Source of the DNA: Oidiodendron maius Zn
Taxonomy: Eukaryota > Ascomycota > Leotiomycetes > Myxotrichaceae
Assembly: GCA_000827325.1 (NCBI GenBank)
Contig: KN832888.1
Location: 905,094 to 955,114, forward strand
Direction of reading: 5' to 3'
DNA length: 50,021 bases
The notes under the pieces were generated by a model. The model was not told the DNA's origin and searched no databases. It saw only the letters and a list, made by a program, of their open reading frames with translations. Shown here piece after piece: positions 25,435 to 48,200 of the stretch. A program made the translations under genes and the position numbers. Every line of letters starts with the position of its first letter. The first letter of the stretch is position 1.

Positions 25435-27480
25435 CTACAATATTGAGATTCTGTATCTGTTTTTATCCAATATAGACTCATACTCTAACCAATGTTCGTG
25501 CCTAATGTCTTGAAAGTCGTTCCAACTTATCATCCCAAGTGCTCCGGTAGATGCAAGAAGAATTCCAACTCTTTTAAATTGACCTTTTTTAATTCCAGTG
25601 GGTTCGAGCAAGAGGCAGGTGACATGCCATGTCGGAAGCTGGCGAGTATCAAGGAAAAGGGGAAGACAGTGAAACTCGAGTGTAGTATAGACACGGTCAA
25701 GAGAGATTTTCACATCATGCTTCTCAGGCCACCATGACCCGTTGAAGAATATATGCCACCCGGCAACAGGGTCTGGACAAAGACGAACAGTAGCTAGTAA
25801 GCCTGATAACATTAAACTACCTCCAGTGATCATACCAAAGGTGTCATCCGTGGCGGTTTCAACTTTGCACTCCATAAGGTTAATCAACATCTCTAGATGA
25901 TTGTAATCTTCTTCGGAATAAACCCCTACTGCAATACGACCGTCTAAACTTGCCCATGACCATGATGGTGCACAGTATGTGCGAGGCCCTTGGGGCAGAT
26001 CTTGTATATTATGCGACCGTGACCATGACAACTCTACGGCCAGGTGCTTCTCCCACAATCCAGCGCAATATTTATCATCAAGAGCTGGCTCCATGATCCT
26101 TGCAATGCCGGAAAGAGCGACCAGCTTGTCAGTTGTATATGTCAAGTTGCATGCGGTGTATATTTCCACGATTCCTGCCCACAGTCTCCTTGAAATGTAT
26201 AATAATTTAGATTTCATGAGCATGTCCGTGGTGCTGGAGTGGTTGATACTATAGTTTAACACTGCCCATAGAGCTTCTCTAGTCTTCCAGTGATATCCAC
26301 CACTTGGTATACCTCCTGGATACGTCTCACTTGCAGTTAAGTCATAGCACTCCCAAAAGAGTTGAGTACCGGTTAAATAGAGCACTCGTGGCGCCAGGAG
26401 TAATTCTTGAACAACCCATGCTCGCTTGTTCAAAGGCATTTCATCGAAAGTATGATCCAGAATTTTGTTGTGATACAGTAGGTAATTATCGTTGGTAGTG
26501 TTAGTCCATGAAGTTTGTATGATACATGGTTTGACTATTGAGAGGTCCCGATCGGGGAAACAAGCCATGTTGCTGTTAGCTGCCACACTTGCTGCGATAT
26601 TCATGACTGCACATCTATAGACATTGCTCATAAGAGGGGATTCCTGTTGCCAGTCCGTCTGAGAATCCTGAAATATACAGAGAGAGTCAATCCAGAGGAA
26701 CTGAATCCCTAGCGAACGAGCAGTAAATATGGCGTCTTGGAAGACTTGTGCTAGTTGTGAAACAGGAAATCCCCCCTCTAGAAGAGGGAGGGAAGCGGAT
26801 GTCAACTTCAATGGGCTTGAGCCACCCCAACAATGACTGACTGTAGCATACTGAATTTTAGATTCGGCTAGGCTTGGATGAAGTAATAAGCTGATTTTCT
26901 CAGCACTTGGCTGCCCGATCTGTAGGAGACGCGTAGGAATATAGCTGCTTGATCCGGACAAGCTGATTGCTTGACACCGGAGATGGCTCTCCAAGCATTG
27001 AGATAACCAATTTGTTGCTGCGCAGGACATGCTTGAAATCCAGCTACTACTGTCGATGATCTTTTCTTCAGCGGTAAATCCGCTCGCGTCTAACTCAAGG
27101 TAAGTGAATAGCTATGCTATTAGAAAGAGGTACGCCTTACCATCCATACTTAATAAATAGAAAGTAAAAGTTCCATCGCATTTGTCAATGCCGTTCTTAT
27201 GAACAGTAAAGTAGACCTCCGAGATATCTTTCGACCAATAAGATTGCTGTATAATGCGATAGCGTGACACTGGTTTTGAATCCACCACATTCCCCTGGGT
27301 AGTATAAGTTTCAGGAATCTCTCCATTGGGGGGTTTATTCGAAATAGCTCGCCATAGGACCTGACAAATGTAACAATTTTCGAAGGCTGCTCGTTCAAGC
27401 CCATGGCTGTCAAGGTGATGATCATAATCCGTAACCTGGCATGATCCTCGAAAGATTTGGGTACAAATTTGGCACAACAT
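25435..27480 (-). CDS. HET-domain (heterokaryon incompatibility-like) protein, 2 exons, 664 aa
   Basis: Minus-strand exons 27480..27141 and 27089..25435 (1995 coding bases), intron GTAAGG...GTTAG of 51 bases. The N-terminal exon has MLCQIC...ERAAFENCYICQVLW, the Cys-rich start seen in many HET proteins. The HET domain proper spans about residues 194-350: YATVSHCWGG, FLWIDSLCIFQDS, NVYRCAVMNIAAS, then KRAWVVQELLLAPRVLY and QLFWEC. The rest carries APSWSWASLDG, the usual C-terminal marker. No NACHT, ankyrin or TPR domain is fused to it. HET proteins are cytosolic and some trigger cell death when non-self strains fuse; whether this one is an incompatibility gene is not shown. The frame is intact although the surroundings are full of element debris. 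Confidence 0.88.
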
Positions 27481-27867
27481 TATATAAATGTTGGCTTTGG
27501 TATGTAGCAGACAATAATAGAACAATCCAGTCTGAGGAATAATCAACAACCGCAAGGCAACAACCACAAGCAGTTTACAGGCTCATCAAAAAGTCTAGAA
27601 ATCGCTTAAGAAAAGCACAAAGACACAGTACAAACATAAATAATCATGTCTTCTAAAATACCGAGCACGATAATAGTCCTGGCTAGTAAAATCAAGTGTC
27701 GAAATTGAAGATAGACGAGAGGAGAGATGGAGAATACTGTTACTACAGCGAACGGTGGCTGTACTTATCACGTGTTATGTCCTAAGCAGATTGATATGCG
27801 ACGTGCGAGGACGAATCTGCTAACCGTATCTATGCTATTTAGCAAGAAGATCTCGGCGAATTATAAA

Positions 27868-39352: not shown

Positions 39353-40133
39353 GTTTTGTTTAATATACATTATTTGAACAAAAGTATAACTGAAAATCAT
39401 CAAAAAGAGCCTATTACGGCACTCAGCCTTAGGCATCATGGCAGCCACTAAGGCTCCTCCTGCTGTACTTAGCCAGATCCTCGATCGCATCCTTCTTTTT
39501 TCTAGTCAAGAGAGATACATACCACAATACAAGTTGCATTGAGTCCATCATAGCAACCCGTGCAGCTGCCCCAATATGGTAGCAATATCACGTTTCTTCT
39601 TCGATCGTTTTAGGTTATAGACCTCCCCCACACCGACCCAAAGGGCGGTGCCGCTCTCTTCACGGTCGAAGAGGGATCCAACCCAGCCACTACTAACGAC
39701 TATCAAACTGAACTTCGGCGATCTTTAAAGCCCTAGTTGATACTACTCGGTAATCCAATCAACGTCATCCTTGATCGATGCCGGGCAGCAAGGGTAGATA
39801 CAGAGACACGAAGACTGCGCGTTTCGTAAAGACCCCAGCAGATCGCAGCGAACCCCCAACGACTGAACAAACAACGCCGATCCCTGCACAGAGCCTATCC
39901 ACCAGGACCCAATCCAAGCCCCTTCTCGATACCGGTCTCTAGGAGCGCCACATCGCTTCACTTCCATTCTCGTGGATTGATGTGCCGAAATTCTCGGTAG
40001 TAGGCACGTGCATTAGCTTAGCCCTAGTCACTATATAGGCAGCAACTCCGAGCCTTATGCACCTGCACCCTTGACAAATATCGGCATTCTGACATCTCCA
40101 TGTCACATCGCTCTTACTAGTACGTACGTCGAC
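39353..40133. other. Intergenic region with the left copy of a direct repeat
   Basis: No gene is recognised. Positions 39846-39937 match 42698-42776 (see repeat entries). The last 60-100 bases should be the promoter of the trypsin-fold gene. Confidence 0.4.
39846..39937 (+). repeat. Direct repeat, left copy (about 92 bp)
   Basis: Contains CGACTGAACAAACAACGCCG, ATCCCTGCACAGAGCCTATC and TCTCGATACCGGTCTCTAGG. All three are found in the same order at 42698-42776, where a 17-18 base piece (AGGACCCAATCCAAGCC) is missing. The two copies bracket the trypsin-fold gene. Confidence 0.75.
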
Positions 40134-42006
40134 ATGTCTGCTTCGAAGCCTTCACCTCGTTCAAGGGTCGCTACAGAACCCACGCTTCGAGCGGTGACGC
40201 GGAGGAAGCGCCCTTCGTTTAGCCCACAGAAGCGGAGATCAGGACTGACACCAGAACAGCAAAAGCAGCGTCGTCAATCTCACAGCAGCAGTGCCAGTAG
40301 TCCGTCACTCCAGAAAGAGCTACAAGGTCTAAATCTTACAATGCGCAACCCAAAGACTGCAGCTCTTGACTTTGAAGAGTTCTCATACGTCGATAACCAA
40401 GGGACATTTCGCCGCATAGGTGCCGCTTGGCTCCACATATTATGTGAATACCTCGAGAAGTACTACCAAGCCGAGTCGGTTTCAGAAAGATTGCCATATC
40501 TAGTTGTGTGGTGCAAGGATACAGTGCCGCCACCCTCAGAGCGGCCTTTCATGATTGCAGGCCTTGTTGCCGTTTGGCTTGTACAGGGAAAAGACAAGTA
40601 TCCACTGGTGAGATTTGGCTCCTATCTCCCATGTATACCAGAAAGCCCCATACTAATTTTGCCTGTAGGATATGGACCTTGGAGACATGGGCCGTAGTGA
40701 GGACAATCGATGGATATCGCTAGAGCAGAACCTGATTGACGATCTTAAGGTTTTCGTCATCCCGAAAGCTAAAACCCTGTCGACCATCATGAATCAGCAC
40801 TTTCCAGAAGCTCTTGCAATTTCTTACATCAACCATCGAATCGTCGTGGAATTCAAGGAGATTAACAATGAGCAACATAAAAAGCGTTTAGATTCTTTAC
40901 CACATGCAATTTCAAGGACAGAGGTGGCCCTAAGATACCACAATGGTGCAATTCACGGCCAAGAGCTAAAGCGTTTGAAGGAACCAAATCCAACAAAGTT
41001 CGATGGCCAGTACGATGATACAGACTATGTAAAGACCCATGGGTGCTTCTATCCTGGTGCGATGCTATCGTCCAAAAATAATACGTTGATTAGCGCAGGC
41101 ATTCAAGTTCAGAAACAACAGAAGATCGGATTGACAGTGGCCATCCACTGCTGGGACAAGCAGCTTGAATCCGATGTTAAACTTGGCCATGAAGACTACA
41201 CTGTTAAGCAAGGCGACTGGGTAGACGGAACAGTCGTTGGAACGGTTATGCAGCGAATAGGATCTAGTGACATTGGAATTGCAAAAGTGGATAAACCATT
41301 TAGCAACCGATTCCTGGACTTAAATGGTTCTGCTTCTAGTCTTTTGCACAGTAACGATTTCAGGACAGTTAACGAATTATTCTGGATTGATAGCTTTGTG
41401 ACCGGACCACAGCAGCTTGCTAGCAATGGTAGGAGAATCTATAAAGCTAACAAGAGAGGCAAAGACCTGTTTGATGACCCAAGCACACTCCCTGGGCGTG
41501 GAAAATATATTGAGCTTGTTCAAGGCATATATGCAACTTCCGCGCCGGAGATCAACAGCCAGCCGAAAATCCGGGAAGGGGTTTGCGGTGCAGCGATCAT
41601 TCGCGCTCGAGAAGACGAGCCTACTCAGACCGGAGAACAAGTGAAGACGCCAACGCTGCGTAACGAAACTCCTACTGGCCAAGGATCTTCGCCCCAGGTT
41701 TCGACTCCCAAGCAGAGAACGTCTGGCAAAGGCCCAGGAACGCCTTCTTCAGCTGGTTCAGCTACACCACTACACAAGCAGCTTCCTCAGGAAGAAACCA
41801 CTGGAGAAATCGCCGGGTTCATGCATTGGTTTGATATCCAGTCTCTGCACAACAGTGACTGCTTATTGTGCTTCGCTGACGCAGTCGACGGATTGATCGA
41901 GGATGGATGGAAGGTAGTGTCGGCACCTGAGAAGCGAAAAGCTGATGCAGCTGGCTTGGACGATGCTTCGGACCCATTCATCACCAAAATTTCTCCTAAG
42001 AAATGA
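40134..42006 (+). CDS. Trypsin-like-fold protein with a Cys at the nucleophile position, 2 exons, 603 aa
   Basis: Model join(40134..40607, 40669..42006), intron GTGAGA...CTGTAG. ATG 40134 starts MSASKPSPRSR; the first 70 residues are basic and disordered. The C-terminal half has the order expected of a chymotrypsin-fold peptidase: TVAIHCW (His318, compare TAAHC), SSDIGIAKV (Asp359) and REGVCGAA (Cys464 where GDSG-type enzymes have Ser). Then comes a Pro/Thr/Ser-rich linker and a last conserved-looking strand, TGEIAGFMHWFD. I recall related uncharacterised proteins in many Pezizomycotina. A peptidase role is inferred from motif order only; the domain may be inactive. The protein seems intracellular (no signal peptide). 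It is intact between direct repeats in a decayed region. Confidence 0.72.
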
Positions 42007-43206
42007 TTCTCTGGGGTTTAGATTCAGGCATTAGATTTTTGTGATTCGTGATTTGAGTTGTAGTAATCAATATAATCTTAGCTAGCCTGAACCTTGTATA
42101 AGCACAGCTTCGCTCCCTTTCCGGATTCTGCTATTTATTTATAAGAACTGATCTAGAGTTATAAGTTTGTGCTGTTATCGTAAGAAAATAGTCCCAGATG
42201 TCTGGTCAATCTAAAGTCTTTTACGTGGTAGAGCATAGAGATAACCCGGAAAGGATAATTGTATGTCCAAACACGTCCTTCGGTCCTTCTTTTATCTGCA
42301 CCGTTACAAAGATCTTTGAAGGGGATGATTTTAACCAGCGTTTTGTGCTTAGGATTGTCGCAGCGACATGTCCCGGCTCAGGCTCTGTGCCAATGGGTTT
42401 CGCAATCAAAATGGTCTCTGAATTATTTCGATAGGAAAGTTGGACAATCGAAATACGTTCGGAAAAGATAATCATCCTCTAGTTCAGCGTCACTGAAAGA
42501 AATTAAGCTCTCACCTTCACCACTGCAGGTTTCGGATAGGAAATTATCCTCTTCTGCAGGGTTTGGCTCTGGTACACGTAATCCATCCCAAAACCCAAGA
42601 ATCCCTCATTATTACCCACCACCTTCCTCTAAGTATAAGCCTAACGTTCTTGAATGCTTCTAGAAGAAAAGAACAAAAATGTCCTTTCAGACGGAGCGAA
42701 CCCCCCCAACCGACTGAACAAACAACGCCGATCCCTGCACAGAGTCTATCCACCTTCTCGATACCGGTCTCTAGGACAGCTACAGCTCCGTACCCAAGAA
42801 GGACGTGCAGCCGCTAGAACCGCTCTACTCGGGATGGCCGACCAATAAAATACCACGGGCGAGACCTGTGAAGAAACTCGGGACGACAGACCACCTAAGG
42901 AATGCCAGGGGAGACGCAGAGATCTAACTACTAAGTTTCGCGTTAATCTTCTATTCCGCTGCGCGCTACTATCAAATGTACTACTAGCAATATGCGGTGT
43001 GCAGGAAGGATAAGTCAAATAAGGAAGGCGGTAAGCCCTTAATGACGAGTTGATAATGGTAAGTCAACCATCCACCTCTATAAATATGTCATCGAGTGCA
43101 TCACTGGTTACAACACCCATCTACGCTCTCAATATACTGATCGATCCAGACACAGCCGAACCCCTTACTCCAATGGCACTACTTACGACCCGACCTAGCC
43201 ATCATC
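42007..43206. other. Intergenic region with the right copy of the direct repeat
   Basis: A small ATG-initiated frame (42198-42434, 78 codons) has no recognisable domain. The direct repeat lies at 42698-42776. Nothing else is identified. Confidence 0.35.
42698..42776 (+). repeat. Direct repeat, right copy (about 79 bp)
   Basis: Same core as 39846-39937 with a short internal deletion and one C-run length change. Similarity ends abruptly on both sides. Confidence 0.75.
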
Positions 43207-45221: not shown

Positions 45222-48200
45222 ATGTCGTAACTAAGTCAGATGTAAGGAATCTTCAAGTTGGACCGCTAAGACAGGCATCATATATGGCGGAACTGGGAGA
45301 TCTCCGAGCAACTGCTGCAGGAAGGCTTCAATGTCAGTGACAGTATGCTGCGGCGCGAACACGACATGGGCAGCCAGGAAATCTGGATCGCCTTCACGGA
45401 GTGTGACCACAGCTTCCCTCGAGGAGCCACGTGCTGCTGAGAGGATATTGCTCCCAATGTCAGCAAGCTCGATGCGGGGGCGTCGAATCTTAACCTGCAC
45501 ATCGCCTGCCATACGCCTATGGAAAACCATTGCCCCATCATCTTGAATGTGTCCAATATTGCCCGTGCGATACATTCGCGTCCAGTCGTTGGCGATGTAC
45601 TCAGGCGTTGCGTACGGGCTTGGAACGAAGTATTGATCAGTTAGTTCTTTGTTGTTCAAGTAGCCTAGAGATACACCGGCGCCCCCAGTAACGATCTTTT
45701 CGGGCATTCCAGAAGGTACAAGCTTGAGATGCCCGTCTAGTGTTACATAGTTAGGGAGCGAATATTCACAGGGAGTACGATCTCCTGGAATCGCATCACG
45801 GTAAGCAATCTCCATTTTGGTAGATGAAATTGAAATTTCCCTTGGGCCATAAGAGTTAAAAAAACGCAACTGTGGGAGACTAAAAGTCGAAAATTCCTTC
45901 ATAACAGAGCTGGTCAGGGGCTCGCCACCACCGAGGTGAAGCGCCAGTCAGAAGCTTGCCGGAGGTTGTCGTAGCCATAATGTATCCATAGTGAGTACTC
46001 CGAAGGCGTTGCCTTAGTGTATGTAATGTTGTGCAGTTGAATGATCTTGGTAATCTCGAACGGATCTCCACGTTTGCTCCATGGAACGACATAAACCATT
46101 CTGCCGTTGACTAGACCTCTGTATATCTGGTCCGAGGAGTGATTGAACGTGAAGGCACTCTGCTGTAGCACTCCTTCTACTCCCAGCTTCCACATCTTAT
46201 TATAGCCTTCGATCTCATTGCGGAGGCCTGAGTGTGTCCCGATGATGCCTTTGGGCTGCCTGTCGAGCCATTTGTGTACAAGGTGGCCGCGAGAGAGTCC
46301 TTAAGTGCAGAGTTGGCAACGGGAGCTGAGGGTCTTAACTCCACACGCGACACGTCGATAATGGAAGCATCAGGCATATTTAACTGCTTTGCGTCGCTAA
46401 ATGTGGTGCCATCGGCGAGAGCGGCTCTCGCGACGGCCGCCAAGCGTGGTAAGAGGTTATGGAGGTTCAACGGTACAGTACATAAACGCCTCCCGACGCG
46501 CATGATGGCGAGCATGGAACAAACCTAGTCGGACGTCGCTTGTTGAAAGACGAGCACACGGGATCCTGTACTAACTCCAGCATCCTGCAACGCCTGACAG
46601 ATAGCCTAAATTCGACTGGTCATGTTGGCGTACGTGAGAATTCTCCTGAGGCCATCTATAAGGGGCAACTTTATTAGGGTTCTCTTCATCAACCTGATCG
46701 ATTGGATGTGGAGAGCGCTAGGCCAGTCAGATGTCCAATTTGGTCCTGGCATGATCGTCGGCTGGGGTATCTTGCAAGTGGGTGGACGTTTAAGTTGGGA
46801 ACTTACCTCGTCCTAGTCCGAGAGTGTGTATAAGCTGCTTCTTACTAAAGAGAGGAATATCCTTTAACGGGAGAGATACATCACTGCAGAGCATGTCGAG
46901 CACATGGAGGTACGTCTTTAGTAACAAATTCGTCGCAGCCAGGCCGTAGAAGCTCTTCTGCACTCGGAATAACACCAGGGCTTCCTCCGTGCTCTCCATC
47001 ACGTCTAATGTGATATAGTACGCCGTCCGTCTGGGATGCATCTCCTCTAGCTCGAATTGGCAATTACCCCAAAGATGTTTGTTCTGAGTTCCTGCACGGT
47101 AATTGAAGAATGCTTGGAAGAACGGACTGTATGCGGAGGAGCGGGGTATATTCAGTTCTTCAAGGAGCACATCGAATGGGAGGCGCGAATTCCCAAGTGC
47201 GGTGTAGGCAGTGTCCCGAACCTCTACAATAGCATCCGTAAAACGTTGACATGGCTGGCGGCGGAAACGCAGTATAAGAAGGTTAAGAAGGAAGCCAATA
47301 GTGTGTGCCACATCGCAGTCGTTGAGGTTAGCATCAGCAGTGCCGATTGTCAAGTCTTGGACATCCATGGAAAGGAAAAGAATAGATTTGAAAGCGGCAA
47401 GGTTGAAATGGAATGCAGTCGATCTCTGTGCCTTAGACACTGACCGGGCTCGAGCTGGTATTTCACTTGATGGGTGTCAAACTCCTGCATCGGCATACGA
47501 GAGCTGATTCGAGCCATGGGTAATAGAGGCAAGACTGGTGGTTATCTGGGAGTACTCCGCGCCAGAAGTTGAGCTCGTCGGCCGTATCTCCATTCTCCAA
47601 AGCTTTCGGGGAAAGCGGGCTTGTTGGGGTCGTATACACAGATGTAGAACTTGACTCTACATTCTGAGGCTCAGGTTTGAGCTTTTTGCTGCAGGCTTGG
47701 TAAGCTCGTCCCTAATCTTAGGAGGAAGGTTTTCTGGCACCTTTCCAAGCACTTATTTACAAATATTGGCAAGAGGTGCTCTTCCGAGCAGTTTGAGAAC
47801 TGGCATATCGACCTTCAGCTCTTTTAAGAACCAAGACCGCACCTGGACAGCAACTAATGAATCGATTCCGAGTTTGATGAGTGGAGCATTGCGGTCAATT
47901 ACTTGGTCAGATAACTGCAGCATTGCTCGCAGTTTTGCTTAGAAACATTCTGTATTAGAGTTAGCATTTATATTCATCAATTTGCTCCGGCGATTTAGCT
48001 TACCAGTTAGGACCTCGAAAGCTTCCTCCAAAGTCGTTACATTCGATACTTGTTCCATGACAGGGAGTGTTGTCTTCTTGTCGAGTTCTTCGTATCAATG
48101 ACTTTGGCCTTAACAATATAGTGTGAGAAGGAGAAGCGTGGGTTGTCAAACTAGGGTTTTAATATTTTCGTCGTCCGCAACCGTATGGATACCTGTAGTA

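Follow-up and report, generated by a model that had tools for sequence, protein, structure and literature searches.

Peptidases of the chymotrypsin fold make up the PA clan, for which the portion of PMC6524800 drawn on here counts 14 serine families and nine cysteine families, the latter being proteases of positive-strand RNA viruses. Fungi possess intracellular signalling proteases of this clan, Ssy5 and SltB, which show weak similarity to known families and have a Ser nucleophile (described in sections of PMC4557415). Among the peptidases that fungal NLRs carry, S8 and CHAT are the two main clades, and the peptidases of fungal NLR and gasdermin clusters are thought to be intracellular actors in conflict and cell death (both from parts of PMC10197012); trypsin-like effector domains are also discussed for bacterial conflict systems (from part of PMC7159879). 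Literature searches over open-licence papers, judged by titles and abstract openings, turned up no description of a cellular or fungal chymotrypsin-like cysteine protease. Here, we describe a gene on a 50,021-nucleotide stretch of the Oidiodendron maius Zn genome (the window; C19:905094-955114 in contig:position form, running to the contig end at 955,114, in an assembly of 45.9 Mb and 58 contigs). From its sequence, we think it probable that the encoded protein is an intracellular PA-clan peptidase related to the HtrA/DegP type, with Cys464 replacing the nucleophile Ser. Stated most generally, our best reading is that the gene encodes a Cys peptidase, or pseudo-peptidase, of the trypsin fold.

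Putative catalytic motifs and gene structure

The gene and its parts are listed below by window coordinates, where "open copies" are the window copy and three relatives in the same genome whose reading frames are open over the protease domain.

40134..42006, + strand: protease gene, 603 amino acids in two exons, stop included, with a putative C-terminal trypsin-like Cys domain (spliced translation)
40134..40607, + strand: exon 1, 158 amino acids, of which the first ~65 are basic and Ser/Pro-rich
40608..40668, + strand: predicted intron, GT...AG, 61 bp, read from sequence alone
40669..42006, + strand: exon 2, 445 amino acids plus stop, containing the entire peptidase-like domain
41085..41940, + strand: trypsin-like domain, approximate extent, from the paralog alignment and hhalign to HtrA, bounded by the strand preceding His and by the C-terminal helix with its basic tail
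41146..41148, + strand: codon of His318 (His160 of the exon-2 protein), the same residue in all four open copies
41269..41271, + strand: codon of Asp359 (Asp201 of the exon-2 protein), present in three of the four open copies
41584..41586, + strand: codon of Cys464 (Cys306 of the exon-2 protein), which lies in G-V-C-G-A-A-I as the putative nucleophile and is the same in all four open copies
41603..41806, + strand: low-complexity insert of ~65 residues rich in Thr, Pro, Ser, Gln and Gly, from alignment columns, boundaries approximate

In the spliced protein, TVAIHCW starts at residue 314, SSDIGIAKV at 357 and EGVCGAA at 461, which places H318, D359 and C464 in chymotrypsin-like order with spacings of 41 and 105 residues. 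The 603-residue translation thus confirms the motif order, spacing and residues given in a preliminary description of this DNA. A strict pattern ([TS].{0,2}A.H, then D[hydrophobic][AG][hydrophobic], then GxCG, at chymotrypsin-like spacings) turned up twice when the protein was shuffled 100,000 times, and a looser one that also permits Ser in 58 of the 100,000, both patterns having been composed after the sequence was seen.

That description had also held that the protein lacks a signal peptide, which fits its hydropathy: the maximum 12-residue mean, for starts at residues 1-30, is -0.03, a judgement made by hydropathy only. A transmembrane helix is likewise unsupported, with every 19-residue window at or below 0.94. 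Exon 1 has no recognised domain (its best Pfam match, GspL_C at E 0.027, falls below the cut-off), and searching the genome with it returned, besides itself, a single match at E 0.15 that we did not count as a relative. The low-complexity insert sits between the nucleophile strand and the next strand (GEIAGF) and has no counterpart in the three open paralogs. Since it is absent from the paralogs and adjacent to the predicted active site, this insert could be regulatory in the window copy.

A family within the genome

At least six relatives were found in this genome. Three of them have frames that are open over the protease domain, and three are decayed. With the window protein as query, one relative was found at C15:350788-351528 (E 8e-6, 26% identity), which was also recovered with the window domain alone (E 0.0025); by BLASTP, the window copy matched the 492-residue open frame of this copy, C15:350683, at 1e-12. 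The C15:350683 copy led in turn to a second copy on the same contig, at 259669 (570-residue frame), and the latter to C1:2032261 (54% identical, 307-residue frame), C5:28509, C8:1913 and a 36-residue fragment at C4:2708814. Since these searches were stepwise, the window copy is tied to the rest of the family mainly through the copy at C15:350788. Weak matches on C2 (E 0.10) and at C8:64997 (E 4.0) were left out of the count. Scans of viral contigs and genome contigs, and tblastn of plasmids and phages, none of them a fungal genome collection, returned no relatives.

Identity to the window copy among the open copies is 24-28%, and the alignment of all four contains 31 invariant positions, including the His, G-x-C-G, the A-I that follows, a later G-F and a C-terminal L-I-x-x-G. 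The block G-x-C-G-(A/S)-A-I is constant across the four. Since Cys is kept in every open copy, the alignment supports taking it as a trait of the family at the predicted nucleophile position and not as a mutation of a single copy. The decayed copies carry stops in the matched stretch (three in C5, nine in C8 and one in the C4 fragment); Tyr stands in place of His in the C5 copy, which retains Asp and Cys, and at the nucleophile step the C8 copy, read by eye, has lost Cys. Of the seven copies, those of the window (8.0 kb), C8 (1.9 kb) and C5 (28.5 kb) are found within 30 kb of a contig end.

Profile comparison with HtrA proteases

By hhalign, the four-copy profile matched a 28-sequence HtrA profile with a score of 35.0, at a probability of 47% and a pairwise E of 1.9e-4; none of 199 column shuffles scored above 27.4, and the reversed profile scored 12.5. 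Against a 5-sequence HtrA profile, built from DegP, DegQ and DegS of E. coli and two Nma111-like proteins of the fungus itself, the score was 28.1, with a maximum of 17.9 among 59 column shuffles and 13.8 for the reversed profile; against bacterial HtrA only, the probability was 37%. The hhalign register places the family Asp and Cys on the HtrA Asp and Ser. When the three paralogs were forced into a global alignment, their His and Asp fell on the same residues of HtrA and their Cys on its Ser, and the C-terminal helix coincided with the DegQ one. The profile-profile match supports the chymotrypsin/trypsin-type relationship that had been proposed from the motifs, and we regard homology to the PA clan as likely though short of proof.

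Several results weigh against this reading. No credible match for the family was found in Pfam, PHROGs, NCBIfam or PADLOC, or in sequence searches of the PDB. The hhalign probability is 47% only, for the four-copy profile; the three paralogs without the window copy reach 3.3% with a score of 23.3, under the best four-copy shuffle, and single copies score 15.3-23.2. Adding a fungal secreted trypsin (L025) to the 5-sequence comparison lowers it to 21.8, and a forced global alignment of the four-copy profile leaves His out of register. A plain hidden Markov model (HMM) search of 370 frames with the HtrA profile did not separate the family from background, the best family frames having E 2.6 and 3.8. 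Single-sequence AlphaFold2 modelling of the domain gave a mean predicted local distance difference test score of 30.7 and a predicted template-modelling score of 0.19, a confidence that makes the model useless. All the copies compared come from this one genome, and the C1 copy has Ala for Asp, so that of the three residues singled out in the preliminary description, His and Cys stand in all four open copies, whereas Asp is lost in one.

Among the library matches set aside as chance-level were TIGR03906 (E 0.032) and phrog_7324 (E 0.41), both on the C1 copy, and Rrp40_N (E 0.16). A PDB match to a chitinase (E 0.6-0.8) was discarded because a short Gly-Cys-Gly-Ala stretch alone carries it.

The genome also encodes two Nma111-like HtrA proteins (L023 at C1:5320503 and L024 at C5:2309082) with Ser in the first domain. 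Their degenerate second domain, read by eye, lacks the His and Asp, and its nucleophile step is G-Q-C-G-S-G or G-T-C-P-S-G. Descent of the family from this second domain was considered and rejected, the family profile scoring 23.4 against it with a probability of 3.6%, which is noise level.

Genomic surroundings

Trypsin-like domains had been described in advance as effector domains of fungal NLR-type proteins, and this link found no support. Pfam recognised no domain of the NLR type, NACHT and NB-ARC included, in those family proteins that were scanned, nor any in 10 window frames and 10 paralog-flanking frames, and a term search for "trypsin" returned no occurrence in the main text of PMC9815663 or PMC10197012. 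The neighbours of the C15:350683 copy include a HAM1-like frame and those of the C15:259669 copy a fungal rhodopsin-like frame and a cyclin, none of them immune; the C8 copy lies beside a retrotransposon gag and the C1 copy beside two frames without a match. An NLR or gasdermin link was not seen at the partly scanned flanks (C5 excluded), and no genome-wide gasdermin search was made.

Within the window, a HET (heterokaryon incompatibility) gene lies ~12.5 kb upstream, at 25435-27582 on the minus strand, in two adjoining frames (E 1.6e-28). Downstream, on the same strand as the protease gene, 43141-44515 matches DUF3990 weakly (24.3 bits against a curated cut-off of 32.2; E 2.8e-5); since it is spread over separate open frames, this DUF3990-like gene is probably decayed. 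Remains of a non-ribosomal peptide synthetase occupy short frames at 45234-47476 on the minus strand (condensation E 7.1e-14; AMP-binding E 1.8e-4, below the cut-off). These two places bear out the earlier mention of decayed genes nearby.

The protease gene lies between two copies of a direct repeat:

39853..39952, + strand: direct repeat, upstream copy
42704..42784, + strand: direct repeat, downstream copy, 94% over the first 51 bases and 76% over the second 51-base block

The two copies are ~2.85 kb apart, start to start, and genome searches with each returned these two places only, although such a DNA search may miss common words. The repeat may delimit a unit that arose by duplication or insertion, or it may be a promoter-side element that is shared.

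Towards the contig end, 49000-50021 is AT-rich (GC 0.37 compared to 0.48 in the rest of the window) and has the dinucleotide bias of repeat-induced point mutation, with TpA/ApT of 1.59 compared to 0.82 and (CpA+TpG)/(ApC+GpT) of 0.63 compared to 1.21. By eye, the last ~55 bases of the window look similar to sequence next to the decayed C8 copy, which lies close to the contig start. A telomere array was not seen at the contig end, with TTAGGG and CCCTAA each occurring once in the last 2,022 bases.

Discussion

If the predicted fold is right, Cys464 would attack the substrate, with His318 activating Cys464 and Asp359 orienting His318. A protein substrate would then be cleaved in the cytosol or nucleus, a likely site since the protein has no signal sequence and a basic N terminus. 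The divergent N-terminal region and the disordered insert beside the active site would probably govern targeting or activation. The double barrel, the catalytic activity, the location and the regulation are all features that we infer. Loss of the Asp in one copy would be compatible with a Cys-His dyad, since such a dyad is described for some viral members in the passages of PMC6524800 cited here.

A pseudo-protease, in which a PA-clan fold and its Cys-His pair bind a partner or peptide without catalysis, after the model of degenerate trypsin domains in other signalling proteins, is an alternative that we regard as rather unlikely, if one to be taken seriously. The Ala at the Asp position in one of the four open copies would suit it, as would the finding that nearly all trypsin domains at one of the effector positions in vWA systems of bacteria are inactive (according to the part of PMC7159879 used here). 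Moreover, the fungus's own Nma111-type second domains have a Cys near the nucleophile position without His or Asp, and therefore Cys alone is no proof of activity. However, His and the full G-x-C-G are invariant in all four open copies despite 24-28% identity to the window copy, and a pure binding domain would have no obvious reason for keeping exactly these.

Two further explanations concern the origin of the likeness itself. Capture and domestication of a 3C-like protease from a positive-strand RNA virus of fungi appears very improbable: the viral peptidase families of Pfam all lie above E 10, the viral contig scans confirmed no relative in a collection that is not one of RNA mycoviruses, and the profile resembles HtrA in a comparison that viral 3C profiles stood outside. 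Least probable of all, in our view, is a convergent or accidental likeness, by which an unrelated domain would simply have a conserved Cys and His. The missing library matches, weak single-copy profile scores and want of a usable structure are what it would predict, but the profile score was reached by 0 of 199 column shuffles, the positions that align are the catalytic ones and the motif order is rare among shuffles.

Under the preferred reading, an HtrA-related Cys peptidase, the way in which copies turn over, decay and lie close to contig ends is suggestive of an accessory role, and our guess is a rapidly turning-over family in defence, self/non-self or stress signalling, not a housekeeping protease. 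More broadly, and only tentatively, these proteins may represent cellular chymotrypsin-fold Cys peptidases of filamentous fungi, in which an HtrA-like ancestor swapped Ser for Cys and gave rise to fast-turnover proteases of conflict or self/non-self recognition, a counterpart of viral 3C. If true, the invariant Cys would mean that the Ser-to-Cys switch occurred and persisted in a cellular lineage too. The family would then offer a natural system in which to study how this fold exchanges its nucleophile, and it might add a new class to the intracellular proteases of fungi, with a role in signalling or conflict.

Comparison with known systems

The S8 and CHAT effectors share with the family the character of intracellular proteases, but their folds differ from the one proposed here. 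Ssy5 (S64, PF08192) and SltB come closer, being of an intracellular fungal PA-clan type with weak family similarity; they differ in having Ser where the family has Cys, and the family has no PF08192 match up to E 10 and no pseudo-kinase domain was found in it.

Viral PA-clan cysteine proteases have G-x-C-G at the nucleophile step, as the family does. Viral 3C and 3C-like enzymes (MEROPS C3, C4, C30, C37 and others) further resemble it in their His-Asp/Glu-Cys or His-Cys arrangement, on the fold that is predicted for the family, and in this respect the sections of PMC6524800 at hand bear out the preliminary description, which had assigned Cys in this clan mainly to viruses. The family gene, in contrast, is nuclear, intron-bearing and chromosomal, lies among fungal genes and has no polyprotein context; Pfam gave no viral peptidase match, and the comparison with the viral enzymes is one by description, not by sequence.

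The HtrA proteases (DegP, DegQ and DegS; MEROPS S1C; PF13365, Trypsin_2) differ from the family in their nucleophile, which is Ser in G-N-S-G-G compared to Cys in all four open copies, and the family members are stand-alone proteins with an unrelated N-terminal region. In Pfam scans, PF13365 was absent up to E 10 in every copy and no PDZ domain was found, and a PF13365 search of the fungus's own genome returned three other places only, none a family copy. On the other hand, HtrA is likened to the family by the profile match, with Asp and the nucleophile in register and, for the paralogs only, His and the C-terminal helix as well. The parallel runs without a gap at the nucleophile step, where D-G-I-C-G-S-A-I-W-D-E-D-G-T-V-V-G of the C15:259669 copy lies alongside R-G-N-S-G-G-A-L-L-N-L-N-G-E-L-I-G of DegQ.
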